Assembly (NCBI GenBank): GCA_030407315.1
Contig: JALQPE010002421.1
Coordinates: 1 to 64,000 of the forward strand
Direction: 5' to 3'
Origin: Asparagopsis taxiformis
Taxonomy: Eukaryota; Rhodophyta; Florideophyceae; Bonnemaisoniales; Bonnemaisoniaceae
Length of the DNA: 64,000 bases
Shown here: piece by piece, positions 13,823-54,072 of the stretch
How the letters are laid out: each line of letters begins with the position of its first letter
How positions within the stretch are numbered: the first letter of the stretch is position 1
Translations under genes and position numbers: made by a program
Notes under the pieces: model-generated
Databases searched by the model: none
What the model was told of the DNA's origin: nothing
What the model saw: the letters and a program-made list of their open reading frames with translations, nothing else

Positions 13823-16800
13823 ATGGGAGACAATAGTATCATGAATACTACAGCGGAGAAGAACAATTCTCCTTCTGCTGAAGAGAAAAGCATCACTATT
13901 GCTCAGTACAGCTCTTCTAAAGTGCAAGTTGATCCTCGCAAAGTGAAGTTTCCGACAGTGACCTCCCGTTTGGTGCGACCGGGTCGTGTAAACGAACTGG
14001 CCAGCATTTTCATGGATAGAGGTTTCTCTACCACTGGAACTATGATTACAGTCTGCAAAATGGAAGATAACGAAGGAGACGAGTTTTACTGCATCGATGG
14101 CTCTCATCGCATAGCTGCTCTGCAACTATGCCTGGAGAAGTACTCAGGAAAGAACAGGGATTCCTTGGAATTGGTTTGGGTACAACAGTTGATTGCGCCG
14201 AACGGGCGTCTAATTTTCGATGCGCTGGAGGTTCTGAAACTGTCTCTCGAAGCCAATATACAAACTCACGATGTCGCTTCTGTGAGCATTGCCGACAATG
14301 TCTGTGCGGTCATAGAGTTTCTCAGGTTTTCCAACCAGATGGATCTTCCTGTTGCCCGGCTTATTCCTATTCTGAAAGAAGTGAGCTATATTCTGCCGTC
14401 CGACAGGAACCGTTCGGAGAACTCGTATAGGCAGTACATCAACATTGCGAAGGGGTTCAATCGCACAGACAGCGTTGCTTTCGTGTACTGGGGCTCTATC
14501 CCTAGCGTTTACAATGCTTTGGATAGGAACAGAGAAATCGAGGATGCAAGAACCGAGGGAAGAGATCCGGACTTTTCTCCAATTGACTCTGCCGATATGT
14601 ACGGGTGCGTGCTCGATCTTGTCAATAACGCAATATTCCGCAATGGTACGGACGGACGAGGGACGCGCGATAAGGAGTGGTTCCAGTGGTTTGTGCTCGA
14701 GATGACAGCGTCGTGGACAAGGATGAGGAGGAAGAGAGGACTTGTCAGAAATATCGGAAGCGGAAGTCCGTTCACGATGCGCACTTGGCTACTGGCTCTG
14801 TTGGCCATCTATGATATGGCAGAGGTCGTCCGCAAGTGGTTGAACTCTGCAACGATGGAGGAATTCGTGCGAACGGATTTGGCAGCAGAAAACGCGAAGG
14901 AGGTCGGGGATAATGATCATCGCATTGGAGAACGCATTTTATTCGTCCTTGTCGACTTTCATGACGACGTGGTAGACAGAAGCAGTCTGAGAACCAAGAA
15001 CGGGATGTTTACAAACAGTTTTTACGACAAACTGGAATATGCTACCGGGACAAAGGCAATGCAGGAGACGAAAGCGGAGGAGGAGAGGGAACGGAATCGC
15101 ATGACCCCCGGAGAAATAGAAAAAGCACTTGTTGCTGGCGCCAAAGCAGAAGAGGAAGAAGCACCTACTGCCGCAGAACAGGGAAATAATTCTACAGAGA
15201 AGGAAACGGTGGAAACTCCTGGTCCTGTTCAAGCAGAAGAAGGAGTATCTGCCGAAGCCCAAGTAGAGCAGGAAGTTTCTGCTGTTGTGGAGGAAGAACA
15301 GGAAATTACTCCAAATGTGGTGGCAGAAGAAGTGATTCCTGCTGTCGCAACGAAAGCAATAGAAGAGGAACCTCTGAGCACCCCGAAAGAAGCAGAAGAC
15401 CGTCCTGCCGCAGCAAAAGAGGGAGGACAGGAACGTCCTGCCACGCGTCTTGCAGCAGCTGAGAAGAGGGAAGCAGAACGTCTTGCTGTTCTCCAAAAAG
15501 AACAGGAACGTCTTTCAGCTTTAAGGGCAGAGCGGGAAAGTCGTGCCAGGGATAATTCGCCGGGAAGGATTGTCAGAGAAGATCTTCCTCAGGGAAGGAA
15601 ACAAAGCGGCGATACGCAAAGTCTGGATATCAACTTGGACAATAGTGGTCGCATGGACATAGACACGCCTGGACAACAAGCTGGAGATGCGCAGAACCGC
15701 TCTGTGATATTGAAACTTCGAATCAGGACACCAGAAACTAACAGCACTAGCCCGGCAGAAGCGGACAAGGAGAATTCGGGAAGAAGCAGGAGTTCTGGTG
15801 GAAGCGGCGATGAAAACGAGTCCAGGTTGGATAAGAAGCGAAGAAGGGAAGATACTAGCGCGAATTTTTCTGAGCCCAATACGCCGGATGACAACATTGA
15901 GATTGGGCCTCCTCGGGAAAAGAAGAGTAGAGTCAATGCAAGAAAACGAACGACTGGAGAAGAAGCACCATTCTTCACTGACGAGCAAGAAAACTCCCTT
16001 CCAGACCGCACATTCGCAGAGGAGATACCTGAGAAGCTGCCTTTATGCGTTCCTTCCAACTCGAGAATGAAGTATTATATCACAGAAGAAGACATTGATA
16101 CAATCCGGACGGAGATAATGGAAGCAGCTGCAGGCTACTCTACTTTGGTATGTCCCCTCGGTTCTTGTGAAAGCCAACAATACTTCAGCTACCAGAGAAG
16201 AATGATCGACGAGCTTGGTTATGTGGTGTTGCAAGACATTTTCTCTTCTACTACAGTGGGAGCAGCTACGCACGAGTTATTCACACAGATGGCCAGCACA
16301 TTCCAAGGTACTACAAGTGGCTCAAGTGCAAGTCAGAAGAACCCGTGGAAACCACTTCGACCGAAAGACTGCACTGGTGTATTCAAGACGGACCGGATAA
16401 GCATCTGCGATGACCTTGAGCAAGAAAGCGCGCGGCAGTACAGGAACAAGCTGATTCTGGAGCTAGGTAAGGCGATTTGTGCGGAGAACCTGAAGCTCGG
16501 GTTTGGAAGAGAAGAAGCGGTGGTGTTTCCAGAAACGGGTCTTCGTCTGATTTTGACCGCAGAAGGTAGTCAGGAGCAACTTATGCATACCGATGTTCCC
16601 GTCCGTGAGGGAACTGGAACTGGTCCTCTCAACTCGCCATCATATTTCATGATGGCTGCTGGTGCGGATGGGTTCATCATTCGTATCGCCAAGTTCAGCC
16701 ATGTGTGCCTAAGTCATCCAGCGAAAGACAAGTACCGCGTGCCAGTGACGAACGTGCGCATCCCACCGTATTCCCTGCTTGTATGCCGAACGGACGTGTA

Positions 16801-16945
16801 TCACGGAGGAATGGGATTCGCGGAGGGTCGTTCTTCGGTGAGGTACCAGCATCCTATCCGGTCCCATCTATCACTGCGAACTTCCAGGGAGAAGTTGCTA
16901 CAGCCTCCCTTCAATGTCAACTACTGGGAGCGTTTAGATATCTGA
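13823..16945 (+). CDS. ParB-like / 2OG-Fe(II) oxygenase-like fusion protein 1 (cassette A)
   Basis: About 1,040 residues from the first ATG at 13,823; the open frame upstream has no ATG. Residues about 30-130 form a ParB/sulfiredoxin-like domain with D92-G-S-H95-R96. A conserved region shared with the two paralogues follows (THDVASVSIADNVCAV; DMYGCVLDLV). Residues about 440-640 are Glu/Ala-rich and low-complexity, probably disordered or coiled, followed by basic stretches (DKKRRRE, REKKSR) that could be nuclear localisation signals. The C-terminal part has the residues of a double-stranded beta-helix 2OG oxygenase: H922-x-D924, distal H994 (VYHGGMGF) and R1013 (IRSH), with normal spacing. Seen: the motifs. 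Inferred: oxidation of DNA, RNA or protein. The substrate is unknown. It is the first gene of cassette A, and its downstream partners now lie beyond the inserted transposon. Confidence 0.8.
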   Translation: MGDNSIMNTTAEKNNSPSAEEKSITIAQYSSSKVQVDPRKVKFPTVTSRLVRPGRVNELASIFMDRGFSTTGTMITVCKMEDNEGDEFYCIDGSHRIAALQLCLEKYSGKNRDSLELVWVQQLIAPNGRLIFDALEVLKLSLEANIQTHDVASVSIADNVCAVIEFLRFSNQMDLPVARLIPILKEVSYILPSDRNRSENSYRQYINIAKGFNRTDSVAFVYWGSIPSVYNALDRNREIEDARTEGRDPDFSPIDSADMYGCVLDLVNNAIFRNGTDGRGTRDKEWFQWFVLEMTASWTRMRRKRGLVRNIGSGSPFTMRTWLLALLAIYDMAEVVRKWLNSATMEEFVRTDLAAENAKEVGDNDHRIGERILFVLVDFHDDVVDRSSLRTKNGMFTNSFYDKLEYATGTKAMQETKAEEERERNRMTPGEIEKALVAGAKAEEEEAPTAAEQGNNSTEKETVETPGPVQAEEGVSAEAQVEQEVSAVVEEEQEITPNVVAEEVIPAVATKAIEEEPLSTPKEAEDRPAAAKEGGQERPATRLAAAEKREAERLAVLQKEQERLSALRAERESRARDNSPGRIVREDLPQGRKQSGDTQSLDINLDNSGRMDIDTPGQQAGDAQNRSVILKLRIRTPETNSTSPAEADKENSGRSRSSGGSGDENESRLDKKRRREDTSANFSEPNTPDDNIEIGPPREKKSRVNARKRTTGEEAPFFTDEQENSLPDRTFAEEIPEKLPLCVPSNSRMKYYITEEDIDTIRTEIMEAAAGYSTLVCPLGSCESQQYFSYQRRMIDELGYVVLQDIFSSTTVGAATHELFTQMASTFQGTTSGSSASQKNPWKPLRPKDCTGVFKTDRISICDDLEQESARQYRNKLILELGKAICAENLKLGFGREEAVVFPETGLRLILTAEGSQEQLMHTDVPVREGTGTGPLNSPSYFMMAAGADGFIIRIAKFSHVCLSHPAKDKYRVPVTNVRIPPYSLLVCRTDVYHGGMGFAEGRSSVRYQHPIRSHLSLRTSREKLLQPPFNVNYWERLDI

Positions 16946-17172
16946 TGAAATTAGTTCTTAATAGCATTCTATGGCAGGCATCAAGGCCGCCTTCAAGTAA
17001 ACGATGAAAGTTAGGCTAGTACATGACGTTTGGGTATGTAGACGGGTCAGGAGATATACAATACTCAATTTAATATGAGAAGGGGAGGAAACTATGGCGG
17101 GCACTACTAGAATAGAACAAGGTAATATCGCAGTCGTCTTCAGCTGCAACATTGAGGTGAGGAAGGCTTACA
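16946..17172. other. Intergenic, nothing recognised
   Basis: Sequence downstream of the ParB/oxygenase gene. I see no ORF, RNA gene or repeat here. Confidence 0.5.
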
Positions 17173-17311
17173 GATGATGCAGTTTCGCTGGGGTGCTGAC
17201 AGCAAAGTCATCGTTACGATGACTTTGCTGTAAGAAATCAAATCATTACAGCGGCCACAATTTTTTACCGGGTAAAAAATTCTTGCTGATTTTTTACCCG
17301 GTAAAACCACT
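17173..17311. repeat. Foldback (MITE-like) element remnant with ACCGGGT palindromes
   Basis: Contains the 31-nt palindrome starting CAGCAAAGTCATCG at 17,200-17,230, a 19-nt palindrome TTTTTTACCGGGTAAAAAA at 17,261-17,279, and its partner TTTTTTACCCGGTAAAA at 17,290-17,306. The same modules occur in the foldback element at 46,326-46,733. It abuts the left inverted repeat of the giant element. Confidence 0.8.
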
Positions 17312-17396
17312 AAGGCATCTGCGGCCTGGAGTGCAAACTATCCACTTTTCTACTGCTTTACCTATGGATACGAAAAGGAGAGAAACTACACTACTG
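17312..17396. repeat. Left terminal inverted repeat of the giant element
   Basis: 85 bp beginning AAGGCATCTGCGG and ending ACACTACTG. It is identical to the reverse complement of the right end (46,316-46,325 joined to 46,736-46,810). Perfect identity between copies 29 kb apart implies recent activity or ongoing conversion. Confidence 0.9.
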
Positions 17397-18565
17397 TGTC
17401 TGAAATCGGGCCTGGGGCAGTACTGTACGGCAGTAAAATTTACTGCCTGAGGCAGTAAAATTTAGTACTGTAAAAATATAAATTAATGCCCTACTTGCCG
17501 GCAGTACAGTGCACTGCCCGGAGGCAGTGGCCATGTGCTGCCGACGGCAGTAGAAAGTACTGCCTGGATGTATGAGGTGAGGCAGTGGTGGGAGGCAGTG
17601 ATAGTTGCTGGATTTAGATTGCCTTTCTGGCAGTGATTTGTGCTACATTGGCCTGTAAAATAAAGTAGTATATTGTGCTGACTTGGGCAGCACGGGGAGG
17701 GAGTAAAATATGCTGTCCAGGAATATGGCCCACGGTAGTACTATTTGGTGGCGTAGGATGCACCGTGTGGCAGTAGAAGCTAGTGTTTCCGGCAGCGTGC
17801 TGTGCTGGCTGCAGGCCCTAATGACGGCAGCACATTTTGCTATATTTAGGTAGTGCCCCGATGTACTGTATGACACTGCCTGCAGGTCATGGCAGAGGCA
17901 GAGAAATGTACTGTATTCTATTATTGGACAAAGCAGTAATTTCTGCTGCTGTGTGGTGCTGCTTTTTTTTGTACTTACAGGTAGTGACAAGTCTATGTTC
18001 TGGCAGTAGAGTAATGCAGTGGAATATGATGACAGCAGACATGCTTCGAGGCTGTGTATTCTACTGCCTGTGGAAGCGAGTGGGGACAGTAAATTATGAT
18101 GTCTGACGAAATGTGTGAAAGCAATGAAATGAGGTGCTGATAGTCTCTGGGAAAAGCTGCCTGATAGTACTGCTTTATGATACGAAAAGTGCTACCGTAC
18201 CGTGCTACTTGCCGTGGTGGAAAGTGCTGCCGTGCTCTACTACTTGCGTATGTGTAAATCACTGCCACGCTGTACTGCTCCAGGATATGTGAATTGCTGC
18301 CCCACAGCACTACAAAAAGTAGTAGATTTTGATGTATTATAGAGCTGTCCAGATCAGCGTAAAGTACTGTCTGATAGTGTTGTACTCGACAGGGGCATAG
18401 GACAGTACCAGTTACTGCCTGTGGCAGTGCAGTGTACTACCTGGAAGTGCTACCTGTGGCAGTACATTTCACTACCTGGAACTAGTGCTTGAGACAGTAC
18501 AATTTACTGCCGGGAGGTCTATACTGAACCAGTAAATTGTAGTGCCTGGCGGTACTGACTCGGAC
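17397..18565. repeat. Subterminal array of TACTGCC/GGCAGTA motifs (left)
   Basis: More than 1 kb without a gene, filled with degenerate copies of TACTGCC and its complement, often joined as short palindromes (for example GGCAGTAAAATTTACTGCC near 17,434-17,457). Spacing is irregular. The same motif array lies just inside the right end at 45,950-46,315. Known role of such repeats in CACTA elements: binding sites for an element-encoded protein. Here this is inference. Confidence 0.85.
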
Positions 18566-19997
18566 AGAACGGGAAAGTAGTAGAATATGATGCCTAGGGT
18601 AATACTTTCTAGTGCCTACAATTGATGTTCAGGACGATAGAATGAGGTGGAAATGCCATTCCAGTCGCATGTTCAGGCATCTGGCTACGAAATGTCGGGC
18701 AGAATGGAGTATCTCTCTCGGTGGTCTTCATAGAAGTGTATAGGGATAACCAAGTGTGATCTAAAAGGATGTCAGAATTTTTATGTAGCAAGGACAACGA
18801 TGCCTGAAGGATTGTTTCAGTTCTATCATTAGACTAGACTACTCATAAAATCGAACTATCGTATCTAAAATCTTACTATCTCTACAACCAGGACTATTGT
18901 GCAAGCAAATCGAGTTCCTTGCTGTTTCAAAACTACATGTGATGTTCAGACAGGAGGGAAATAAACACCATTACAGATGATTTGCAACAGGTTAGCAATC
19001 GGATATAGAAAAGTATTGTAAAGGATGAGAAGAACATGAGTATGAATGGAATGAACAAACTTACCATCATTGAACTATTTTTGCGTGCAAAGGTATTGGT
19101 TGTAGGTTGGAATGACGAAAGCTTGCAAGCTTTCGTCATTCCAACCTATAACCAATACCTATGCCAGAATCATTTGCAATCAATAGACTAGAATAGGATC
19201 AGCGAAGAACGATATTTATGGTTAGTGCACTATCTTTCATGGAAAGCATGTGGAAAGAAATGAGAGAGGGGAAAGATACCTACTCGACAACGTACCAGCC
19301 TTACCTGTCATCTTCATGATAACCGGATGATGAAATGGTCCTATACGTCGCGCATCAACAGCCTTAAATAGACAGCTCATCCACTCATAATGACCTCGTC
19401 GTAACTGGAAGGCAGATGATTTGGCAGACGATGATGTGGCAGATGATTTGGCAGCGGATGATCTGTCAAATTTTCTGGACGTGATAAATTAGCAGAAATA
19501 GAAATCATGCCCCTACGCAATGTCAAACCAACCTAAAAGTCTTGGTATTGATGTTTAGCTGCATACTGAAGGAGAAACATCGAATAAATGCTATAAATTA
19601 GAGTAGTAGACAATCCGAAAGAGAATTGCAACCGTGTTCTCATCTATATATAGTTTATTACCATAACAAGATTACTATTGAGGCCTATTATACCATGTAC
19701 TGAAGCTAAATTGTAAATGATTCGTGTATTTCATTCAGAAAAGGAAGCAGGAATCGTTGGAGGCATTAAAGATCGCTGAAGAACCCAACATGGGAAATCA
19801 AGTCACCTGTTCCTTGAGTTAGGTAGGACACTAGTCAGTGTGAAGTTTTCGATAAGATGTAACGGTAAGAAAATATAGGTACTATAAACTATTACAGTGG
19901 CCTGGTTAAAAAGAGACGGATACCATCTTATTAGTTGCGTACTAGTTGACATTAATCCACAATTTGTGCAAGGTTCTCTCGAATCCAAAGAGAAGAG
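18566..19997. other. Non-coding region upstream of transposase gene
   Basis: AT-rich, with no supported gene. It contains the 70-bp palindrome at 19,091-19,160 and, at 19,409-19,470, a small degenerate tandem repeat of GGCAGATGATTT-like 12-15-mers. The promoter of the transposase gene should lie near its right end, but I see no clear TATA box. Confidence 0.5.
19091..19160. repeat. 70-bp loopless palindrome
   Basis: Arms 19,091-19,125 and 19,126-19,160 are reverse complements with one mismatch and no loop. The centre is AAGCTTGCAAGCTT. It is not a transcription terminator of any gene seen here. Confidence 0.95.
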
Positions 19998-22231
19998 ATG
20001 AAACGAACAGCTGTTCGGAAGAAAGGTACACCTCGAAGAACCCGGAGAAGGTTTGAATCATTGCCAACCCCATACGAAAGTGGGACAAGGCACGAAAATG
20101 GGGAAACCCCGCTAGTTTCGAACGAAACATTCGAGGTTCACGCCGATATACCGGACGAAAACGTCGGAAAAGCATCTGCTGAAGACGAGAATATTTCTAG
20201 TGGCAATGGAGAAGAGCACATTGCATTTTTTGAGGCTGGAAAAGTTACCAGAGAAGAAGAAACGATAGGCTCTGAGGAAAGCTCGGCCGAGAGCTGTGAT
20301 GACCACGACGGAGAAGAGGCAGCGGAAGATGACCGCGGACTTGTGGATAAACTGCTGACCTGGCCAGTATTCTCTGCAATAATATTGCTTAGTGGAACGC
20401 TACGGATGAAACGCAAGGACTATGAAGGTATGCGTGAGATGTCTAATTTCAAGCGGGACATTTCGGATCAAGCACCCAGCGACTCGTACATGAGGAAAGT
20501 CATTTTACCGTTCATTCTGAAAACATGTTTCCCACAAAGCATGGATACAACGTGTGAAATAGATGTAACAAAAAGCGGCTCTAGGCTTGGAAAGATGTCT
20601 CCAGGACTGTCTAGTAGCCGTAGAGCTCATTGTACTACATCGGTACGAGTCGTGCTACCGAGCACATGGGCGGAAAGGGATATACAGACCGGACCCATTC
20701 TGGACTGCATAAAGTCTAGTAAAAGGGATAGTAGTGATGAAAGAGAAGATGAAGCATATCAAATTGCTTCAGAAAGTATTGAAAACTCTTTCATTGTCAA
20801 ATGCCGTTCAGCTGTTCTGAATGACCCATTCCATCGCATTTCGGTAAGTGCATCAGATCATGACGGTCACAAGATGCACAGAAAGGTATACGCCCGACAT
20901 GGAGACGAGTTGAGGATCATATGTATGCCGACGACAAATCAAGAGGCCCTGGTGGCTAAGCTGGGAGGAGCCAGAACGAAACAGGGAAAGAACATCGAAA
21001 CTGGAAAGAATTCTAGGAGCAGGAGAAGTTTTACAGCAAGGAGTGACTGGAGAATTGAAGCTATCATCATTGCAAGTTATCTTGCAACCGGAGAAGAACA
21101 ACAAGAATCAAATATGGAAGATGTGATAGGCCCGCAAATCGATGCAATGGAAGAAACTGAGAAAAGAAATGCGAGGCGTGTCGTCTCCACCACAACGCTC
21201 GACGGAGAACATTGCAACAATGATATTCGGGCAGGTGACGCTATCACTCTGTTTCGGCCAAAAAGTAAGTCTGATGGGAGCACATTTGAAGAGTTACTAC
21301 TCGTGAACAGACATCTGAAAAAGGGACGCTCTGAACATGCGACTTTTCTCATTTGCTCCACAAGGGGAGCAACTGGGCAGCTACATCGCGAACAAATTCG
21401 GGTGAAAGACGTCCAGCTCATAGGAGCTCCAGACAAGAGGTCTAGATGGCACCCCGGCTCTAAACGTATGGATGCCTGCAGTGAGGGGAATCTTTCAGAT
21501 GGCAGGAAATATATCGTATACCGATTTCTGCTATATGCTGATGACTTCCAGCCGTTCACAAGCCGGAAAGGAAGTTTTGGTGGCTGCTATATGCTTCCAT
21601 TAGGCATACAGCCAAGCAAGAGAGCAAGCTTCCACGCAGTCCGCGTTCTTGGATTCGTTCCCCCGGGAGTTTCAACAAATGTTGTAATTGAGAGAGTTGT
21701 ACCCGACATTGTGAAGGGAAGTACAGACGGTTTTCCAGCGAAAGATGCAAATGGAGAAGACGTGGTCATATTCCTGGATCCTGTTGGATTTATCGGAGAT
21801 TACCCAGCTGTTTCGCATACTCTGGATGTCCGTGGACACACCAGTAATACACCATGCCATAGCTGCATTTTCGAAAAGCAAGATATGAGCAGCAGTGGAG
21901 GTTCACGAAATGCATACACAGCATTGCTAAACAGTCAGATGAGTACGCATGCCCGAGGAATGCACCGAAACAAGCTTGTGAGGGAAGTCGCATCGCAAGA
22001 TCAGCTCAAAGTTCTTGGACTAAGCCTAGATCCGATTGAGAATAAGGCACTCCATAATTTGAGTGAATCCCTTAATCGTGTGCGGAGAGGAGTTCCTACA
22101 AACGAAGAAGGAGTTCCAGTTGTTCCTTGTCAATTCGATCCATATCGCTCTGCTGTAGTTGCCCCAGACCATCTGCTCTCCGGACTGGCTCAAGATGTGA
22201 TGAATGCGACAATCACCGCAGCAACACCTGT
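19998..22231 (+). pseudogene. TNP2/CACTA-like transposase, 5' part (split by copia insertion)
   Basis: About 743 residues before the copia insertion, starting at ATG 19,998. The N-terminus is basic (RTRRRF), then very acidic. The region around YRFLLYADDFQPF, the later FLDPVGFIGDYPAV and the CX2C of TPCHSC resemble the TNP2/Plavaka/CACTA type of DDE transposase (first Asp, second Asp, small zinc site). PDHLLSGLAQDVM resembles the helix that follows in these families. The frame runs directly into the LTR at 22,232. The missing rest is at 27,634-29,106. The family assignment is by motif resemblance and is tentative. If correct, this enzyme would cut and join the ends at 17.3 and 46.8 kb. Confidence 0.65.
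22227..22231. other. Target-site duplication of copia element (CCTGT), left
   Basis: CCTGT occurs at 22,227-22,231 and again at 27,634-27,638, directly flanking the two LTRs: a 5-bp duplication as expected for copia integrase. Confidence 0.93.
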
Positions 22232-22521
22232 TGTCATATGTTCCATTCTGTAATGGTGGGAATGCTGAGGGATGGGTAATCAACAAGGCGAGTTCAGCCG
22301 GCACGTGAAGACCGAGGGTTGCTTCCCTTATTCCTTTTTATTCCCCGCTTGTGTATGGGGTGAAGCCGGTATTTATACTGTATCGGAGTGCCGGTATTGC
22401 ATTCTGTCAGTAAGTGCAATTCACATATAGAGGATATGTGGTGAATTGCTTAGTGGCCGATTCACGATTAGATACGTGCCATAAAAGTGTGTGCTTATGA
22501 TAAAGTGGGCAGTCTACAACA
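22232..22521 (-). repeat. Copia 3' LTR
   Basis: 290 bp, TG...CA ends, matching 27,344-27,633. Its outer end adjoins the CCTGT duplication. Confidence 0.95.
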
Positions 22522-22750
22522 CACCCCCGAATGACTGTAGTCCATCGTAAGTCATTCTTGCTGTTGTTCTTCTTGTTATGAGCTATTTGAGCAACTTTGC
22601 GAGCTGCCGTAATGTCGATGCCGTGCTTAACTTGTGTTCGTATGTGTATAAGTATTCTCTATATTGCTAATGCAATGTATGCGAGGGGCTATAACCCTTT
22701 GCGTAGTGTCTGCGTAGTAAAATGATAACATATTGCGTGCGTGCTGCTAG

Positions 22751-24559: not shown

Positions 24560-24671
24560 TGGAGCGACAATACACCAATGCTCACTTCCCTCACCCCCGT
24601 ATTGTCGGACTGCAGAATATTTGTGCTATAGGCCGGTGCGGTGATGTATTGGCTTGAATGCAGGACAATGT

Positions 24672-43500: not shown

Positions 43501-43609
43501 AACGTTTTCTATCTTTTCTAGATGGGTCTACAAGACTGTTCAGAGTTAGTCAACCTCGATTAAGTCGATGGTATCCATCGATACATGCTCCGTATCTTTC
43601 TGGCCTGTT

Positions 43610-43830
43610 CCTTCGTCCAGGGACTGTCTGCATTCTGTAACAATGATTGCCCTCCACTTGGCAAAATATCCCTGAAAATAATACCGGGTATTATTCTTAG
43701 GTTTCGTCCAGGGATCGCCTGTAGTCGGTACGAATGATTGCCCTCCACTTGGCAAAATATTCCTCAAAATAATACCCGGTATTATTTTCCGCACTACTCT
43801 GCCAGGTGGAGCTACGGCATTGGATGGGAC
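43610..43830. repeat. Tandem pair of foldback units with ATACCGGGTAT core (locus 4)
   Basis: Two units, period about 91 bp (AATGATTGCCCTCCACTTGG at about 43,642 and 43,733), each with AATAATACC(C/G)GGTATTATT. The outer arms (CCACTTGGC / GCCAGGTGG) pair less fully than at loci 2 and 3. Lies between the convergent Tudor-like and coiled-coil genes of cassette B. Confidence 0.9.
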
Positions 43831-44107
43831 TGCACAGGCCCCGAAGCTACTAGAGGCGTGCTCAATGACAGGGTAAAACTCTTAACCGTAGTAGACATGA
43901 CGCTTTCTAGTCGCAGAGTGAGCTGAAAAATAAGAACGATAGCTATTGTTTCCAGTACACCATGTAGTACGTAGCATGCTAGGGTGCACCTTTTCCACTC
44001 ATATCCTAGACAGTTTCATATCTAAAGGTTTCTATTTCTCCTCAGTCTGCCTCGTCGTAATTATTTTACTTCAAAGGTTATGAAACTTTACTTATCCGCT
44101 TCCATTA

Positions 44108-45631
44108 TCAATCTTCCTCATCAAGGAAAACTTCAACGTAGCTTTCACTCCCATCTTCTTCATTTCCATGTCCGCTATCCTCCTCAAACGCGGTACTACG
44201 CTGTTCCAAGTGTTGTTCATCGAATTTTTCGTTAGTAATTGTCAGTACATCTTCGCAGAGATGCCTCTTACAGATTCGCTCACTCGGCAACATCGCCTTT
44301 CCTAATTGTTTGAGCTCGTCTTGTACACTTTCTTCGAAGGTCTGACCTGATTGTACCTTGAAAATTCCTAGAATCCCGGAAGCGATTGCATAGACAAATC
44401 TGAGTGAATTGCAGGAACGTCGCAGGAAAACCATTCTACTCGTGCATTAAAGGAAAGCAATTGCAGTGTTCAGGGCTACCTCCAGGATATTGATTCTCCT
44501 TCGAATCATCCTTTTGGCCACACATCCCGATATCTCGACTTCGTACTGAATGATGACAACCATCTCTTTCCGCTCAGCGATGAATTGTATCAAGATCTCG
44601 GAATTCTTGTCATCCACAACTTTCCGTTCCTCAGGCCTTAGATTTCCGTTGGTCACACGGGTATCGGGGATAACATCCATATCTCGAATGAGATCGTGAG
44701 TTGGAAACTCGAAAGTGATAGAGGCGTCCGTTTCCAAGACTAGAGCGAACCCCAGTTCGACAGGGAATCGATGGCGCACCTGCTCTCTAGACTTGTTCAG
44801 GAAACCGAGCACCTTTGTCAGCGCAACTTTCGTAACAGCCAAATATATTTCACGCTTGCTCAACTGTCCACCATTTCCATCTGTTTTCCTCCGCTTCCTA
44901 GCCCCTCCGTCAATGCTTCCTGCAGGCTGGTTTCGGCCATCGCCAGTGGCACCATAAACAACTTCTTCGATTATTTTGTCCAGAATGTACTTGTTCTCCT
45001 TCCAGACGTTGAACGCATTCGAATCGCGTCCAGAGCTCGAGCCTTCCACTGTACGGCATGTACCCGACTTTTCCTTCTGAATGTTCCGCAGGAGAGACAT
45101 CACCACTTGGAATCGAAGCTCGATGTTGTTCTTCCCGGTGTTGGATTGGAACACATCCCTCTTGTCATTGCTCTGCTTCGCAAACATCATTGCAGAGAGC
45201 AACCTGCAACCACGGAGGTCGTAGATTCCTTGGTTGGTGTAAATTGTCGCCCCAGCATCAATCTTGTCGACCAGCAAAGGTACAACAGTTCCAAATACTG
45301 CACACAGAAAATTGTAAGAAAACGATAGTTCTGCTGACTGCGAGATGCGCAAACGGTCCCTGTCCTTGTCAGTCATCCCCTTCTTCGAATTGCCCTGACT
45401 CTGCTGTAATAAACCATCACAGATGTCTTTCACACCCTGTAATTCCGTTACTATAAACTCGACGCGACTCATCAGCTTTTCGATTTGCTGGCGTTGGGAC
45501 GTTCGATCATCGTCGATTTCATCCATCCTCTCCCCAATACGACGAACTTCCCCAGTCACTGTCCTGAATCCCTCTCGAATAATCCCTGCGAGGCAGTCAT
45601 TTGGATTTTCCTCACGACGCTGAGATTCCAT
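44108..45631 (-). pseudogene. Coiled-coil protein 1 (cassette B), one in-frame stop
   Basis: Paralogue of 52,546-54,072. ATG at 45,631. 394 residues, then TAA at 44,447-44,449, then the same frame continues to 44,108 (total about 507 codons, the length of the paralogue). The stop stands where the paralogue has Gln (AVAYTQC against AIAFL-stop-C), so a single C-to-T change explains it. Residues about 15-85 form a coiled coil (VRRIGERMDEIDDDRTSQ and onward). A conserved DKDRDRLRISQSAELSF block, a basic ARKRRKTDG patch (possible nuclear signal) and an acidic C-terminal tail follow. No enzyme motif recognised. The stop removes about 110 residues; a shortened protein may still be made. Confidence 0.75.
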
Positions 45632-45949
45632 CTTCCGTCAAACTTCTCCTCTCGTTCCAATCGCAAAGTGTCACTCCAGACGATTTTCCTGCAACAAGAA
45701 TGCTAGCAATAGTAACAAATAATGCCAACTACTCTACTCATATCCTCGGAAAACGACCGATTTTCTCCTACCTTTTTTGTAACGGTCATTTCCATGTGAC
45801 CATGCATCCTCTACACTTCTCACTACTAGTAGCTTCAGAATAGTTTCCTCTCTTCTCTACTTGAACTCACATGCGAACACATTGTACAACCCTATCCTGG
45901 ACAACTATTGCAACATTGAATCTCAGAAAATACCAATCACCAATTACTA
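45632..45949. other. Upstream region of coiled-coil gene 1
   Basis: No ORF supported. Promoter of the coiled-coil gene expected here; no clear TATA box seen on the minus strand. Confidence 0.4.
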
Positions 45950-46315
45950 TCAAGGCAGTACTTGCAGGCAGTACAATTCACTGCCGGAGCCAGTATATTT
46001 TACTGCCTGATTCTAATGCCAGGTCATTTGCCAGGGCAGTACTGTACGGCAGTACATTCCATTGCAGAAATCATCAAAAATCACTGCATTGCACTACTGC
46101 CCTGTGGTACCAGCAAAAATTACTAGAATTTGCTATCGTACAGTACTGCATTCTGCTACATACCGTACTGCCAGGAAATTTTGTATTTTACTGTCTGCGG
46201 CACTAGAACTGAAAAAATTAAAATAGTAATTTTACTGCCTCAGGCACTACATTGCTCAGGCAGTGATTTTTACTGCCTCAGGCAGTAAATTTACTACATT
46301 TTTTGATCTCAAACT
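45950..46315. repeat. Subterminal array of TACTGCC/GGCAGTA motifs (right)
   Basis: Same motif family as 17,397-18,565, for example CTGCCTCAGGCAGTAAATTTACT near 46,275-46,295, in both orientations. It lies just inside the right inverted repeat. Confidence 0.87.
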
Positions 46316-46810
46316 CAGTAGTGTAGAAAGATGTGAGTGAGAAATTGTGTAGCAACGCAGCATGTAGAACACCAGTAAGACAGCGATGTAGGAGAAGCAG
46401 TAACCCCATTACAGTGCGGGCCGTTTACCGGGGATGCTGACAGCAAAGTCATCGTTACGATGACTTTGCTGTAAGGAACTGTTTCCTTGCAGTGGCCAAA
46501 GAATTTTTTACCGGGTAAAAAATCCGCAAGAACTTTACCAAGATCGGCAAGAAATTTGGCGTGGCGCTGTAATGATTTGTTTTCTTACAGCAAAGTCATC
46601 GTAACGATGACTTTGCTGTCAGCATCCCCGGTAAACGGCCCGCACTGTAATGGGGTGACTGCTTCTCCTACATCGCTGTCTTACTGGTGTTCTACATGCT
46701 GCGTTGCTACACAATTTCTCACTCACATCTTTCTAGTTTCTCTCCTTTTCGTATCCATAGGTAAAGCAGTAGAAAAGTGGATAGTTTGCACTCCAGGCCG
46801 CAGATGCCTT
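46316..46810. repeat. Right terminal inverted repeat of the giant element, split by a foldback insertion
   Basis: 46,316-46,325 (CAGTAGTGTA) plus 46,736-46,810 (from GTTTCTCTCC to CAGATGCCTT) together equal the reverse complement of 17,312-17,396. The 408-bp foldback element and its TA duplication occupy the middle. Confidence 0.88.
46326..46733. mobile_element. Foldback/MITE with about 150-bp near-perfect arms, TA target duplication
   Basis: Arms starting GAAAGATGTGAGTGAG (46,326) and ending CTCACTCACATCTTTC (46,733) match over about 150 bp with one mismatch seen, around a loop of about 105 bp. TA flanks both ends (46,324-46,325 and 46,734-46,735), as for Tc1/mariner-type insertion. It contains the CAGCAAAGTCATCG palindrome in both arms and TTTTTTACCGGGTAAAAAA (46,504-46,522) in the loop. 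No coding capacity. Confidence 0.93.
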
Positions 46811-46926
46811 CCTGCAGTCATGTCACGATTGTTGTAGTCTAGTCTATAATATCTAGCGCTCTTGCAAGATGATGCACAGTCTATTGTCTCTGCCAATGCG
46901 TGTTTACTCAAATCTATCAAAGTAGC

Positions 46927-49900
46927 TCAGTTAGCTGGCCAATATTTTCTACCATAGTCGGCAAATATCTCCTCATCAGCTTCAACGTCTCTGGTCAGAA
47001 CGACCTTGACAGCATGGGGATTCTTGATATTTGAAGCAAAGTCCGGTTTGTCTATGGCATCGCCTTGTCGAAACTCGGCTGACTGTGTTCGACTCACCTC
47101 GGTCGCTTTCTCCGTTCCGTCAATGACCCGACAATCATTGAGGTAGCTGGTACAATTATAGACCGCTGGAACGAGCCAGACCTTCCGAACAGGTGCACCC
47201 CTCCCTATGTACGTGGTTTCCAATTCCATGATGTAGTCCTGGAACCTCTCTCCTGTGCACCCAAATCCTTCCGGGCCGTACATCACTGATCTCTGCGGTT
47301 CCGAGTCTCGAATCTTCGCATAGAAAATCGTCCCGTTGTACCAGCCAATGACCGTCCCCTTCTTCAGTTTCTTCGCCGCGAATACGCCAAACCCACCACC
47401 TCTTACCTCCGATTGCGAAACATAGACACCGTAGAATGCGGCATCGGCAGCCAGAATCGCGTCCGGGTCTATGCTCCAAAACGAGTGCATGTCCTCGGCA
47501 GGCCACTGGTCCATAGGCACCCCGCTCAATCTGTGAAGCATAGACCCGTCCTTCTTCATTGACGCAACGAACACAAGCAGATGGTTCGGCAATGCTGTCA
47601 CAGCAGGGAATCCTTCTGGTGCATCTGAGATGTGCTTCTGACGAAGCCTTGGAGCTTTTCCTGTGACCGGTACCGACTCGTCCCCAAGAATACTCTCCAC
47701 CTCACGCTGCAAGATCCCCCCATATCGCCCGGCTTTCACCTCACTGACGAAAGCATGCAGTATCCACTCCTGCGATGCATCGTGGCACCTTTTTTTCCTT
47801 CTCACACCCAATGAACCGACGATACGTACCATCCCTCAACGTCATACACGCTATGGCTGTGCTGTACGTTCCCGAGAAGAAATCCATCACGATATCGTTC
47901 TGCTTCGAAAATCGTTCCAGAAGCTCACGAAGAGTGGTCAACGCCTTCTGCTCATGGCGCAGTCGGTTGTTCTGCCCATCATATTGAGCTTCACCAGCCG
48001 ACAACCTCGGAACGTTGTCAATCACGTTGGTGAACCCAGGGTGCCTCGATATGTCCGGATTGTGCAACCTGTAATCCACCATATCGTACGCAGCCATACC
48101 CTTCCCCCGCTTATACGCATGGATAACGAAATCGTGCATATTATGCAGTGTGCACGTTTTCGTCGATGGATTGGACGTAAAGCTGTGTGGTCGGCGAGAT
48201 AGCACGACTGGAACACTGTCCACAATCATCTTGCCAGGCTCGGCATTTCTGATTGCATCCATCCATGCCACGAGTTGGCGCACTCTGGAATAGATCAGAG
48301 CATGGCCGCCAGGCCGAAGAACTCGAACTATTTCACACGCAACACTCGCCAACTCTTCCGGCTCCAGAATATCGTACTCCGAGTTTTCTCTGCCGCCTTC
48401 CCGCCTCGTGTTGAATGGAGGATCAGTGAGCACAAGCTGAACACTGTCCTCCAACACGCCATCTTCCAGGAAACTAATTTTGTCCTCCACCTCTTTGGCT
48501 ACATCAGTGGCGTCACAATTCACAGTGTGAATGTAACGCCCCATCACAGCTTCCAGCTTGGTGACGTATTCTGGCTTGGTTTCCTTTCCGACGTCAACGA
48601 GCGGTGCTTCTGTAGGCGATACAGTGTCAACCTCCATAGCGTCATCCTCTTCCGCACCTTCTCTTGTTGCTGTTTCGCTAGCAACCGCCGCACTATCGTC
48701 CTCTCCACCACCGCACTCCAGCCTAGCCTTCTTCCTCTGTGGCTCCAGACTATCCTCTTCTATATCCTCGCTGCCATTGTTTGGCACTGCTGCGGATATT
48801 TCCATCTGCGCAGGTGCACCTTCAAGGATGCCAGGCTCGGGCGTATCCTCAAGACTGTGCAACTCATCCAGGGTCAGAGGAAGCTTTCGTTGCTCTCGGG
48901 TTCGCAATAACCAAGCCTTCAGCCTCCTCTGACCATTCAGGGCATGAGACGTGTTCGACTTGGCTCGCATGAACGAGTTCAAGCCGAACTTGTCAGGAGT
49001 GTCGAAAAGCAAGGCTCGAAGTCTCTGCATCAGCTGACCACGCTCGGCGAACACATTCACCTCAGTGACACATTGGCGTATCGACAGCAGGAAGGCGCTT
49101 GTCAATGATCGTAGCCTTGCATCCACAGCCACTGGAAGGTCGGCACAGAACCCGTTTTCACTGTCTACAGTTTTCGGGACAATGGTCAGGTTTTTCCGAT
49201 GCTCCTCGACCGCACAGCCATCAGACCGATTCGGGAGTGACCTGAAGCAAAGGCTCGCAGGATCGAATACCATGAACGGCCAGCACATCGATTCAACATC
49301 CTCATACCCCAACACTCTTGCCCCGGTATCCCACGCAGCTAACACACGGTCGACAACAAATCCAAGCTGGTTGGCTTGCGCACTGGATGTTGCAATTCCA
49401 ACCATTCCACCACCACCAATGGCCCCGGATGTGGCTCTGGCCCGCCTAGATGGCACACTGCCCATCTCCTTACTGCGAATAGCCAAGATACACTGGCACA
49501 TCATAACCATCAGCCTCCTGAACCGCTTCTGGCTAGCCTGCAAAGAATCTTGCATGTCGGATGTAGCGCCGTCCAGAAAGTACCTGCTCGAAAGCAGTTC
49601 ACGGTTCAGTGGAGAGGACAATTCTCCGCGGGGTGTCTTGCCAAACATTTCGACGGCACGAGAACTAGTCACCCCCACCTGTTTCGGAAACTCAACCATC
49701 CTCGGAGAATCACCCATCTCTGCATTGAGTCCCCATGCATGACAAAACATTTGCCACAGACGTAAATCAATCGAACTCGAATCTTCTGCTCGGTGATACG
49801 GCCGAAGCACAGCCAGGATAGACATGCATGAGCTGTACTGCGGTTTACCACTCAGGCTTGAAGCAATTTGGCCGCTTGGATCGCAGGATTTGATCCAGCC

Positions 49901-50395
49901 CAACACATCAGCCATCCTCACAGACGAAATGTGAGCGTAGTTGTCCTTTCCGTTTTGGACCCAGTACTCGTCTCTGAGATCAACGGCGATCATCAGATAC
50001 TCAACAAACATCATGCGCCTTTGCAGGCCTGCAATGTCGTTGGATGTCGTCGCTCTCACACGGTCCAGCACAACAGCAGTACTGCTGTTGGTGTCCGCCA
50101 CGATAGACTCTTCTCGCATAGGAATCGTAACGCCAGGAGGAAAGACGCCCTTCTCCATTCCACGTACAATTGCCATGCAGCGGTGCGCTCCATCCAATAT
50201 CTCCAGAACGCCTTCTCGAAACCTGCCAGTCACAGGATGAGCTGTGTCATAACCGCTGTTGCGAATGCTCTCCATGAGCGCTTCCACATGACTTGCATCA
50301 ACATCGCGAATCGATACGAATTTGCTGACTTGATTGGGGTCGATGAACACCCATCCGTCGTGCTTTTCACCGTGATTGTGGAACGTTCCTTCCAT
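46927..50395 (-). pseudogene. ParB-like / amino-DNA methyltransferase / SET-domain fusion protein 2 (cassette A), one frameshift
   Basis: Paralogue of 37,871-41,380 with the same architecture and nearly the same length (about 1,156 residues if the frame is mended). First ATG at 50,395. ParB-like domain with EILDGAHR; methyltransferase with LTDPPFN (D658) then motif I DFFSGTYS; SET part with GGGFGVF, GWYNGTI, SYLND and EEIFADYG. The frame changes inside a run of seven A (minus strand; 47,790-47,796) right after RRFIGCEKE, the last strand of the methyltransferase; six A would keep the frame. The break could be a true mutation, a sequencing error in a homopolymer, or a programmed shift that yields methyltransferase with and without SET. 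The conserved SET reading after it suggests the loss, if real, is recent. Confidence 0.85.
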
Positions 50396-50908
50396 GGCGA
50401 ACAAAGGTAGAGTTTTTAAGAAAGGGATAGTTGGTTGCTGCTTGACCAGGGTGGCGCAAAGCAGAAGTTGGTTGTTTAAAACAAAGTGTCAGCGAGTGGT
50501 AGCACTTCGGTGGCTGTTTCCTTTCCACCCCTGTCCGAACCTTTGCAAGATAACTACATCGACTGTTAGCTCAATAATCAATGTAATACTAAAGTAATAC
50601 TCAAAATATTTTTCCATGCAATTTATTGGGCCCCGTAACATCTCTAAGCGTATCTTTGTAGTCCAATCGTATGCATCCGACATTCACTTCTAGAACGATT
50701 ATTCACATCAAATTTTATGCTGCAATCAGTTCATGGCAGACATCATCCACACTGACGTGTCAATTTTGTCAATTGTCCATTCTATTTCTACATCACCTAA
50801 ACATCTCTTCTCGACCTTTCCAATCCTCCTAGTATATACTACTCTTTAGCAGAAGGTAACGGTTAGGCTTTCACTAATACAACAATTCTATCCCATACCT
50901 ATCCCAAC
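50396..50908. promoter_or_regulatory. Divergent intergenic region, cassette A
   Basis: Between the methyltransferase/SET gene (-) and the Tudor-like gene (+), the same arrangement as 41,381-42,111. A TATA-like CTAGTATATACTAC at about 50,828-50,841 lies some 75 bp before the ATG at 50,909. The hairpin of the cassette B promoter region is not present. Confidence 0.5.
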
Positions 50909-52270
50909 ATGCTTCCTCTCGCTCCAAACGACGTTATAGAAGTTCAATGGGAACTTCGGCCGTTTGGGAGGAAACGAAAAATTGTCCGGTGGTCTGCAAT
51001 CGTCAAGGAAATTACTCAGGTCAAGACTGAAACAGACCCATTCCTCCATGCATTGCTCGAATACAAAGCTGAATATGGTTTCGACTCTACCCTTTCTCAA
51101 GTCAAGATTTCAGATCGTAACGAGCTCGTCGACAAGGATTCCGGAAGGGTTCTCCCGTGGCGAAGTGGTGAGCTTCGCAGTATGGACTCACCTGCATCCC
51201 CAGCAGAGAGAGACCCGGACTACGGCATTGACCACATTCGCCACCGCCACCGCGGCATCCTCCAAGATTGCACTGCGGATCAAATGAAGAAGACCGTAGC
51301 AGAAATGCTGGCAAGATTGGAAAAGCTGGAGTCAGCTGCCAAACATCCTCTACCCCCTCCATTCGATTCCAACAGTTCCATGACCTCCTCTGCTCTGACT
51401 GTATGTAGCATTCTGTTTCAGAAGCTTGGTGTGTACACGGACAAGCCCCTCTCCCTCCGGATGACAAAATCCGAGCACTCCAGGGGAATGCGACAAACAT
51501 CGCAAGAAGAAATCAGAGTACAGGCCGACTGCTCCCTTGCTCAATTCCGCACTATTGCCATTCAATGCAAGGCGAAAGAGAATCGTGACGTTCTCTTCCA
51601 GCCGTCCTTTGAGGACATCACCTTTCCCTCTGGAAATGAGTCGGATCCTTCCATCATTTTCCCCACCTTTCAGGCACTATGTGACTCCATAGGTACCTCG
51701 CAACACGGGTTCCAGAAAATATTGGTGAAGAGCAGGGCGGAACGCGATGGAGGCAGCTCATCGATTGTCCGAATTTTAGGAAATCTAGTCGACGTTGATT
51801 GCTCTCATGATGCTCCTTCTTCCGCATTTCTCGTCGGCTCATCTGCTTACGTCTTGTCCAGCCCAGACCAACGTATGACAGTTCTTTGCAGAGACTCCTA
51901 CGAGTTTGACCACGTCAACAATACATTTTTACATCCCCTATGTCTTAGCCAACTATCACAGTCTAGCATCGTGGACTCTTTCCACCTACGTGATAAGGCT
52001 ACTGTTACCTATGGAGCAACGTTTTCGTTACTGTGGAGACGTATTCAGCGCCGAGCCAGTTACAGCACTTTCCAGCCTCTATCAACCGCAGAGACGTTTG
52101 GTACACTACATCTACGCTTACATTGCTGTATTTTCAGTGGTACTACTACATGCCAGGAGCTTGAAGACATTGGCTATGAGGCTATCTCTCGTCTTGGCTT
52201 CAATGCGGATTCAGACACTACCCACCCTCCTTCTCCTCCACCTGCCACCTGCAGTCCGGAGCAAAAATGA
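50909..52270 (+). CDS. Protein with Tudor-like N-terminus 2 (cassette A)
   Basis: 453 residues, ATG at 50,909, intact. Aligns with the protein at 42,112: DVIEVQWELR.FGRKRKIVRWSAIV...YKAEYGFDSTLSQVKI at the N-terminus (Tudor/agenet-like by eye), a short coiled segment (QMKKTVAEMLARLEKLESA, about 125-145), and the conserved C-terminal domain (GSSSIVRILGNLVD; YEFDHVNNTFLHPLCL; CCIFSGTTTCQEL). The tail is Pro/Ser-rich. Conservation of frame and length in a second, diverged copy shows this is a real gene. Function unknown; a reader or adaptor role is inferred only from the fold resemblance and the neighbours. Confidence 0.75.
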   Translation: MLPLAPNDVIEVQWELRPFGRKRKIVRWSAIVKEITQVKTETDPFLHALLEYKAEYGFDSTLSQVKISDRNELVDKDSGRVLPWRSGELRSMDSPASPAERDPDYGIDHIRHRHRGILQDCTADQMKKTVAEMLARLEKLESAAKHPLPPPFDSNSSMTSSALTVCSILFQKLGVYTDKPLSLRMTKSEHSRGMRQTSQEEIRVQADCSLAQFRTIAIQCKAKENRDVLFQPSFEDITFPSGNESDPSIIFPTFQALCDSIGTSQHGFQKILVKSRAERDGGSSSIVRILGNLVDVDCSHDAPSSAFLVGSSAYVLSSPDQRMTVLCRDSYEFDHVNNTFLHPLCLSQLSQSSIVDSFHLRDKATVTYGATFSLLWRRIQRRASYSTFQPLSTAETFGTLHLRLHCCIFSGTTTCQELEDIGYEAISRLGFNADSDTTHPPSPPPATCSPEQK

Positions 52271-52545
52271 TAAAGTACACCTATCCGTAGTTATCCTGTT
52301 CCTGGGTATTTCATTCTAGAGCTCCTGTGGCCATCAATTTCTAGTAAAGACGGATACCCTCGCCCCTTCCTACTTCGACTATTCCACTACCTGTCTCTGC
52401 GCTGTTCCTTCGACTTGACACTATCGTCTGACTGGTTTCCTGATGTCTCGTATCTATCTACTTCCATCTATTACAAAATTCAACTCAACAGAAATTTTAT
52501 TTCTTCATTCTTCGTCTACTACACCGAAACCGGTTTCATCCGATA

Positions 52546-54072
52546 CTACTCCCCTTCATTCTCAATTTCATCATCGACAAATACCTTCACGTATTCTTCA
52601 TCTCCTCCGTCCTCTTCCATAGACCTGAAGCTCTCCTCCAGCACTGAGTCCCCTCCATCGTCTACATTCAGTTCTTCATATCTATCACGCGATATAGTCA
52701 AAACCTCCTCATTCATAAAACGACTACTCACCCGCTCCCCGGGAAGAAGCAGTTTCACTGCTTCATTGATTTCCCGGATTTGCGCTCCTCCCACCTCTGC
52801 TCCACTTTGAAATTTCAAAATCGTTCGGAACCCGTATGCAAGTATGTAGATGAATTGCAAGGAGTATTCTGAACGTCGCAGGAACATGTTCCTATCAGAA
52901 CATTGCGTGTAGGCGACTGCAAAGTTCAGTGCAACCTCTACTAAATTGATCCTCCTAGTCACAAACCTCTTGTCCGGTTCTCCAATTATTTGAACTTCGT
53001 ACTCGACTTTGAATACCATTTCTTTTCGCACAGCAATGAAGTCGCGAAGAATCTTCATATTCTTGTCATCCATTGCTGCGCGCCCCGCTTCATTCATTTT
53101 CCTCTGCGCCGAGTACAGACTTGGAACTGACTCAATGTCCAGCCCACCGTCGTGCAAATGATGCTCCATGCGGACTGAACCTTGAAACCCACTGTATAGA
53201 ACGAATCCAAGATCTCGGATGAACCGGTTTCGCACATGATCTCTGGACTTGTTCATAAACCCGGTCACTGCGGTGAGTGCCGATTTCGTCACAGTGATGC
53301 CTACCTCCTTTCTGTGCAACGGCCCATTATCACTAACCTTTCTTCGCTTCTGCTTTCGAGAGGCCCCATCACTTCCCTCGGACGTCCCATGCATTCCATC
53401 CATGCGAGCAGAGTCCGTTCCGCGAATTGTCTCCTCAATGGTCCCGGTAGTCACATACCCCCGCGCCCTCCACCGTTCGATACCTTCCGACGTTCCATTG
53501 AAGCTGGAACGGTCTCCTCCCTCTCTGAAAGAATTGTTTTGACACGTATTCTTGATTAAAGAGGTCACAACTTGGCAGCGCAATTCAATGTGGTTCCGAC
53601 CGGCAAGCGTCCTATTGAACACATCCTTTCGCTCATTGCTCTGCCTGGCGAACATCAGCGTATTGATTAGCTGGCATCCGTTGAAATGCCTATCCCTCTT
53701 ATCCACCATTGCCTTCGTGTACGTTGGAACAACAGCACACAGCACAGCACACACCATTTCGAACGTGAACGATTTCTCCGCATCCTGCGCAATGCGGAGA
53801 CGTTCCCTGTCCTTCTCGGAGGCGATCTTCTTCGGATGTCCTTGTCTCTGGCTCAGAAACCCATCGACGATGCTCTTGACCTCCTGCATATCGGAGTTTA
53901 GCATGGAGACAGTCTTGGCGACATTTCCGAGAGTCTCGCGTAATTGATTGGTGCTCTTCTCAACGGCATCCATTTTATCACTCAGGGCTTTCAGCTCTGC
54001 AGTGATGTTCGAAAAGCCCTCACGCGTTATTTCGGAAAATGCGGCGAAGCTTACGGAGGTTTCGGGATTCAT
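52546..54072 (-). CDS. Coiled-coil protein 2 (cassette A)
   Basis: 508 residues, intact. I chose ATG 54,072 (MNPETSVSF) because the open frame upstream of it runs into the gypsy LTR and the paralogue begins at the matching place. Residues about 10-80 are a strong coiled coil (ITAELKALSDKMDAVEKSTN and onward). Then EKDRERLRIAQDAEKSFTFEM, a variable Ser/Gly-rich part with RKQKRRKV (possible nuclear signal), a conserved region TKSALTAVTGFMNKSRDHVRN, INLVEVALNFAVAY, FLRRSEYSLQFIYILAYGFR, and an acidic tail. No known domain recognised; the heptads suggest a self-assembling partner. Only 275 bp separate its stop from that of the convergent Tudor-like gene. Confidence 0.8.
   Translation of the reverse strand: MNPETSVSFAAFSEITREGFSNITAELKALSDKMDAVEKSTNQLRETLGNVAKTVSMLNSDMQEVKSIVDGFLSQRQGHPKKIASEKDRERLRIAQDAEKSFTFEMVCAVLCAVVPTYTKAMVDKRDRHFNGCQLINTLMFARQSNERKDVFNRTLAGRNHIELRCQVVTSLIKNTCQNNSFREGGDRSSFNGTSEGIERWRARGYVTTGTIEETIRGTDSARMDGMHGTSEGSDGASRKQKRRKVSDNGPLHRKEVGITVTKSALTAVTGFMNKSRDHVRNRFIRDLGFVLYSGFQGSVRMEHHLHDGGLDIESVPSLYSAQRKMNEAGRAAMDDKNMKILRDFIAVRKEMVFKVEYEVQIIGEPDKRFVTRRINLVEVALNFAVAYTQCSDRNMFLRRSEYSLQFIYILAYGFRTILKFQSGAEVGGAQIREINEAVKLLLPGERVSSRFMNEEVLTISRDRYEELNVDDGGDSVLEESFRSMEEDGGDEEYVKVFVDDEIENEGE

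Follow-up and report, generated by a model that had tools for sequence, protein, structure and literature searches.

The window analysed here, a 64,000-nucleotide stretch of DNA from the red alga Asparagopsis taxiformis (contig C2295, positions 1-64000), holds two transposable elements, A and B, which belong to two families of giant CACTA-type DNA transposons, both high in copy number and diverged from each other but with the same cargo, B being inserted into A. Genome-wide searches were run over the 141.5-Mb assembly. The shared cargo comprises gene 1 (alpha, with a ParB-like N-terminal module and a putative oxygenase domain), a second paralogue of it (beta), gene 2 (ParB-like, with DNA methyltransferase and SET domains) and genes 3 and 4, and each family has its own short palindrome. 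Each element thus pairs a DNA-binding module, joined to two or three enzymatic activities, with a palindrome array specific to its family, an arrangement which suggests that the elements may mark themselves by address. The features of the window are collected in Table 1.

The termini of B, at 17389 and 46323, read CACTACTG...CAGTAGTG, which is of the CACTA...TAGTG type, and are flanked by a 2-bp TA duplication. The insertion point within A falls in an inverted duplication, the other arm of which retains the uninterrupted sequence GAAACTAGAAAGATG; this corresponds to the joined flanks of B minus one TA, and is thus the empty site of the B insertion. A previous reading of the letters without database searches (the sequence-only reading) had proposed that B is nested inside A and that an element had inserted into a relative of itself, and the empty site at the B flanks bears out both proposals; the length of 29.5 kb given there is corrected to 28,935 bp. 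The inverted repeats 17312-17403/46719-46810 were considered as ends of B and rejected, as comparison with an A copy on contig C436 identified them as A sequence, and the ends were moved to 17389/46323. The C436 copy (3459-22868 of the stretch examined) has CACTACGGTGTTG ends and a GA target duplication, so that CACTA...TAGTG inverted termini are present both in B and in A on C436. Inverted copies of a Gypsy long terminal repeat (LTR) retrotransposon flank the A fragment of the window (12000-13295 and 54154-55466; 96-99% complementary over 1,286 nt, in three blocks), the right copy carrying gag and pol and the left one only a gag-like open reading frame (ORF), as far as seen. A perfect 56-bp palindrome lies at 13584-13639, just upstream of A gene 1.

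Both families have subterminal repeats of their own: 23 of 25 copies of GGCAGTA/TACTGCC in B are found no further than 1.3 kb from an end, as are 28 of 29 copies of GACAGTA/TACTGTC in A. Such repeats, together with the enzymes kept beside the transposase, would suit an explanation in which the cargo regulates transposition, the timing of the transposase being set by methylation, either of its promoter or of the element ends. Bacterial Dam controls Tn10 in such a manner. By this analogy the cargo could act on the transposase, but the palindromes are internal and away from the ends, and a SET domain would be unnecessary; we consider this explanation quite improbable.

The ends, the target duplication and the subterminal repeats are all features of the CACTA type. 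The B transposase gave a weak local match to a Plavaka transposase (E-value (E) 1.5e-4 over 72 residues), and the comparison with a Plavaka profile an E of 0.011 with a probability of 4%, six of six shuffles reaching 0.28 or worse. No relevant Pfam match, including Plavaka PF18759, was found for the A or B transposase pieces scanned, the transposase being, to judge from its sequence, too diverged for Pfam. A and B resemble Plavaka and CACTA/EnSpm elements (CMC group) in the CACTA...TAGTG ends, the 2-bp target duplication, the subterminal repeats and the short Plavaka transposase match; unlike Plavaka, they have ends which differ from the two Plavaka types in the accessible part of PMC12730594, and transposase pieces without the Pfam Plavaka match. 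A Plavaka transposase proper (PF18759, E 1.3e-24) was observed at L030:5-2743 (-), adjoining the C436 A copy; it may be part of a third family with cargo, which would then have been the target of the A insertion. Petroll 2025, on Bostrychia moritziana, reportedly describes an expansion of giant Plavaka transposons. Upstream of the B transposase lies a 70-bp palindrome with one mismatch (19091-19160).

The order and strands of the cassette ORFs are identical in A and B (gene 1 +, gene 2 -, gene 3 +, gene 4 -), as the sequence-only reading had proposed, and all gene pairs were found where it had placed them and are homologous at 34-47% protein identity: 37% overall and 45% over the C-terminal domain for gene 1, 42-47% for gene 2, 34% for gene 3 and 42% for gene 4. 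Since the proteins are 34-47% identical, the two cassettes are old relatives and do not stem from a recent duplication. The description as a four-gene unit was too narrow, as the transposase and the second ParB/'oxygenase' paralogue also belong. In B, the cargo consists in sequence of the transposase (split by a Copia element), the broken second paralogue and genes 1-4, after which the element ends. A second A element, at the far right of contig C2295, has the transposase followed by gene 1, and the second paralogue is found, whole or in part, just before gene 2 in three of the three A copies examined upstream of gene 3 (C436, C44 and C632); the A element of the window has no second paralogue before gene 2, and the C436 copy is incomplete, its transposase and gene 1 being fused by a deletion. 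The second A element on C2295 (L003:8903 to L032:7295) lies in several frames, and palindromes were observed 3' of its transposase and gene 1. In a third, more distant element around the C436 A copy, both gene 2 and the C-terminal domain of gene 1 have relatives; ORFs resembling genes 3 and 4 were noticed there by eye. The protein database returned seven relatives for gene 2, five of them at only 24-33% identity, and one for gene 1.

The genes also travel together outside the window, as had been proposed. Copy counts are lower bounds, the candidates scored being 92 of 1267 for B gene 3, 105 of 1254 for B gene 4 and 93 of 1194 for A gene 3. There are at least 92 copies of B gene 3 (98-100% identical; no internal stop in 91 of 92), at least 105 of B gene 4 (no internal stop in 104 of 105) and at least 93 of A gene 3 (no internal stop in 93 of 93). 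Among the 92 scored copies of B gene 3, 69 have gene 4 on the opposite strand and as far away as expected, and for the other 23 no gene 4 was scored anywhere else on the contig concerned; conversely, a scored gene 3 is in place for 69 of the 105 B gene 4 copies. The unpaired copies may be unscored or cut by contig ends. The order and orientation of genes 1, 2 and 3 are kept in four out of four further B stretches. The sequence-only reading had named genes scattered elsewhere, or trees at odds with duplication as a unit, as findings that would speak against it: the genes are linked elsewhere, and in the methyltransferase tree A and B group together with 100% ultrafast bootstrap in the presence of six other sequences. 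A diverged or recombinant B-like copy was observed on contig C9 (L006-L009), with a gene 2 N-terminus 55% identical and a gene 3 end 97% identical.

Among the cargo domains, only the methyltransferase and SET domains of gene 2 pass the Pfam cut-offs. The N6/N4 DNA methyltransferase domain PF01555 is present in both copies (E 1.2e-13 and 7.6e-16, Pfam), with DpnA and CcrM as the closest solved relatives, and the SET domain PF00856 is above the Pfam cut-off in both. The N-terminus matches a bacterial ParB profile with an E of 4.7e-4 (0.19 or worse in ten of ten column shuffles) and the ParB-like partition protein family of PHROGs, a phage collection, with an E of 0.003. The A copy of the window lies where it had been placed, at 46927-50404, and is in two frames there; elsewhere gene 2 of A is a single 1155-aa (amino acid) frame (C436), or gives one uninterrupted match across the break (C44 and C632).

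Gene 1 and its paralogue have an N-terminal module which matches the one in gene 2 (profile comparison, E 1e-4), and HTD...H...R, the pattern of Fe(II)/2-oxoglutarate oxygenases, is kept in their C-terminal domain in four of four aligned sequences. Close relatives of A gene 1 are P0008 and the copy at the right end of C2295, and the second A paralogue on C436 (P0010) has 1211 aa. Pfam scans gave no TET/JBP match for the gene 1 domain. A search of IMG/VR, by two peptide patterns for the oxygenase domain and two for gene 3, yielded no relative of either; this limited test does not support a viral source. A firm alpha/beta orthology was rejected: BLAST pairs alpha-A with alpha-B and beta-A with beta-B, but tree support is 59 (50-55 with a fifth sequence). 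The apparent order of the paralogues, alpha-beta in A vs beta-alpha in B, is a lead only.

The label 'Tudor-like' proposed for gene 3 stays a motif-level reading, as no family match was found: the whole protein was searched up to an E of 0.5 and the N-terminal piece up to an E of 10 for Tudor in Pfam, and NCBIfam and PHROGs returned none either. Gene 4, a predicted coiled-coil, has sub-cut-off Pfam matches only, several to helical families, and the A copy has one to Hva1_TUDOR (E 0.28). The B gene 4 frame is 396 aa in the window vs 509 aa in most other copies.

The palindromes of the two families have a common core and different arms. In both families they follow the 3' ends of most genes, frequently as tandem arrays. 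The B palindrome, AATAATACC(S)GGTATTATT, is present eight times in the window (six exact sites and two with two mismatches) vs 0.00 expected in shuffles, and genome-wide there are 2,333 exact sites for B and 2,319 for the A palindrome, TTTTTTACC(S)GGTAAAAAA, vs 0 for the backward-read control pattern in each case, these totals being whole-assembly counts, within or outside A/B elements alike. Palindromes were found in 14 of the 20 loci scanned, several of which overlap, and their arm agrees with the family of the surrounding genes in 13 of the 14; in the remaining locus (L004) no cassette gene was found to tell the family. There are no exact A-type sites in four B loci and no B-type sites in the C436 A copy. 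The array at the gene 1-2 junction varies in length among four other B copies (1, 2, 9 and 10 sites, the last consisting of nine regular sites and one apart), and two sites are present at the gene 3-4 junction in each of the same four; 25 palindromes in a row are listed on contig C19, and one A copy has three 881-bp units. The A palindromes were seen beyond the 3' ends of three genes, namely the transposase, gene 1 and the second paralogue (L032, L025, L026, L028 and L029). A 389-aa open frame across the tandem palindrome array of a B copy (L039:2349-3518, -) was also observed, and is probably a by-product of the 114-bp repeat unit.

We consider it quite possible, if somewhat short of probable, that the ParB-like modules dock on the palindromes of their own family and bring the linked enzymes with them, resulting in self-marking of the element; the step from co-occurrence to recruitment is inferred. 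The modules would bind the palindromes and recruit the enzymes to the element, where the methyltransferase could add N6-methyladenine or N4-methylcytosine to the DNA, and the SET domain could methylate histones. A host mark could be removed by the other catalytic domain, which is perhaps that of an Fe(II)/2-oxoglutarate oxygenase. Self-marking would keep all copies of one family expressed or competent for movement despite host silencing, a variable array length would tune dosage, and through changes in the palindrome arms each sister family would reach its own copies alone. That this amounts to a transposon self-recognition code, in which palindrome arrays and matching ParB-like modules guide writers of DNA and histone methylation and a mark remover, the arms diverging and the core being kept, appears doubtful.

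Several observations weigh against self-marking through the palindromes, to begin with the whole-assembly scope of the totals given above. The A family has no such palindrome between genes 3 and 4 (window, L027 and L024). The position of the palindromes at gene 3' ends fits terminators or boundaries equally: in B of the window each of the four pairs follows a gene 3' end, two pairs stand where genes converge, and the divergent gap between genes 2 and 3 (41381-42111) has none. The palindromes could accordingly be read as transcription terminators, poly(A) or boundary elements, with the cargo enzymes marking chromatin without them. We regard this as unlikely, as AT-rich arms around a one-base centre would make a poor RNA hairpin and a good dimer site, the number of sites in an array varies greatly, and the families share the core but not the arms.

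Further observations against self-marking concern the protein domains. The methyltransferase and SET domains proposed for gene 2 hold at Pfam cut-offs, but the ParB domain proposed with them has only moderate support, from the profile and PHROGs matches: hhalign gave a probability of only 33%, and no ParB match for the gene 2 N-terminus was found in Pfam or PDB. The ParB-like module of gene 1 alone has no match to bacterial ParB (E 0.1, profile comparison). The SET motif is NHSC, and this position reads NDSR in B and NDCR in A, which makes SET activity of gene 2 uncertain. The 'oxygenase' label of gene 1 stays a motif-level reading; the claim that the protein is an oxygenase found no database support, the C-terminal domain having no oxygenase family match in Pfam, NCBIfam, PHROGs or PDB, and the conserved motif is what is left of it. 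AlkB was tried as a relative and rejected (E 0.53, one AlkB sequence compared), and two AlphaFold2 models were too poor to use (mean pLDDT, predicted local distance difference test, 30 and 36).

Not all copies are intact: in the further B stretches, gene 2 has its full 1169-aa frame in three of four and is broken in one, and gene 1 is open to its end in two of four and broken in two. These broken frames, together with gene 2 of window A and the transposase-alpha chimera of C436, are what would be expected of passenger genes without function for the element. Two families with proteins about 40% identical nonetheless keep the same genes, relatives of genes 1 and 2 persist in the third, more distant element, and the frames of genes 3 and 4 are uninterrupted in nearly every copy scored, which makes mere passengers very improbable. 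The combination of a ParB-like N-terminal module with palindromic arrays also recalls bacterial ParB-parS, a likeness known here from sequence co-occurrence, and could point to a partition-like system in which ParB-like proteins on the arrays cluster or retain copies or excised circles. Unlike in ParB-parS, no ParA-type ATPase match was found among the 22 proteins scanned with Pfam (shorter ORFs were outside the scan), and the elements are integrated, with target duplications; we consider partition highly improbable. A plasmid-type RepB/ParB gene was observed separately at L001 (contig C1526); most of its best relatives are genes of alphaproteobacterial plasmids, so that one contig of the assembly is probably bacterial.

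Table 1 Features of elements A and B in the 64,000-nucleotide window of contig C2295.
Feature	Position	Strand	Remarks
Element B, giant CACTA-type DNA transposon inserted in element A	17389..46323	+	28,935 bp; ends CACTACTGTGTCTGAAATC / CAGTAGTG; TA duplication; empty site
Element A, left part	13640..17388	+	98.9% match to C436 A copy over 16270-17233; outer boundary approximate, set by neighbouring Gypsy sequence
Element A, right part, truncated beside Gypsy element	46324..54160	-	98.4% over 7.6 kb to C436 A copy, from 46562
Inverted duplication with 155-nt arms, within right part of A	46324-46735		inverted repeat
B transposase ORF, first part	19998..22231	+	41% identical to A transposase; weak local Plavaka match
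Copia LTR retrotransposon inside B transposase	22232..27634	-	291-bp LTRs 100% identical; RVT_2 E 6e-24
B transposase ORF, second part	27682..29106	+	39% to downstream part of A transposase at end of contig C2295
B second ParB/'oxygenase' paralogue (beta), broken reading frame	29814..33337	+	41% to A paralogue P0010 over C-terminal domain
B gene 1 (alpha), ParB-like N-terminal module and conserved HTD...H...R domain ('oxygenase')	34364..37180	+	ORF, 938 aa
B gene 2, ParB-like, N6/N4 DNA methyltransferase and SET	37871..41380	-	1169 aa; PF01555 E 1.2e-13, PF00856 E 2.2e-5
B gene 3 ('Tudor-like', without family match)	42112..43500	+	462 aa; at least 92 genomic copies including that of the window, 98-100%
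B gene 4 (predicted coiled-coil), truncated in window	44447..45631	-	at least 105 copies including that of the window
A gene 1 (alpha)	13823..16945	+	ORF; 45% to B alpha over C-terminal domain
A gene 2, ParB-methyltransferase-SET, two frames (47741-50404, 46927-47832)	46927..50404	-	Pfam
A gene 3	50909..52270	+	at least 93 copies including that of the window, others 98-99%
A gene 4	52546..54072	-	42% to B gene 4
B palindrome pair, two mismatches each, 3' of transposase	29402..29525	.	
B palindrome pair AATAATACC(S)GGTATTATT, exact, 3' of beta paralogue	33760..33896	.	
B palindrome pair at convergent gene 1-2 junction	37552..37684	.	
B palindrome pair at convergent gene 3-4 junction	43677..43786	.	
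A palindromes TTTTTTACC(S)GGTAAAAAA, one exact and one with two mismatches, 3' of A gene 1	17261..17308	.	
A palindrome, exact, region beside A gene 2	46504..46522	.	
33-bp palindrome of family A	17199..17231	.	further copies 46440-46472, 46587-46619

The occurrence of ParB-methyltransferase genes on transposons of algae has been published before (PMC12477816, in its accessible part, as for all that is cited from it here). The giant Ectocarpus transposon Sola1-1_Ec32 codes for a protein of 1104 aa in which a ParB-like domain is combined with an N6/N4 DNA methyltransferase domain, its gene and the transposase being on opposite strands, and the authors suggest that ParB-methyltransferase proteins bind and modify their own transposon; similar proteins on green and red algal transposons are mentioned there with reference to Iyer 2011 and Petroll 2025 (Bostrychia moritziana). 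A and B are like Sola1-1_Ec32 in being giant DNA transposons with a ParB-methyltransferase gene, and the idea of self-modification is the same in outline; Sola1-1_Ec32 is, unlike A and B, a member of another transposon superfamily. The SET fusion, the ParB-like 'oxygenase' paralogues, genes 3 and 4, and palindromes which differ between sister families are additions relative to the description of Sola1-1_Ec32 in that source (PMC12477816). Fungal DNA transposons carry TET/JBP, a mark-removing oxygenase thought to counter silencing (PMC12730594, accessible part), and are like A and B in combining a DNA transposon with a candidate mark-removing oxygenase, at motif level in A and B; unlike A and B, they are without DNA methyltransferase or SET cargo in the portion of that text consulted. 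A literature search, itself incomplete, turned up no other paper on the A/B cargo set.

Transposons are usually seen as targets of chromatin marking, and an element equipped with address tags and with DNA and histone writers of its own would be marking itself. The presence of two families with matched, diverged palindromes makes the idea of self-marking directly testable, as each ParB-like module should prefer its own palindrome. If true, A and B would represent a natural sequence-addressed chromatin-marking system in eukaryotes.

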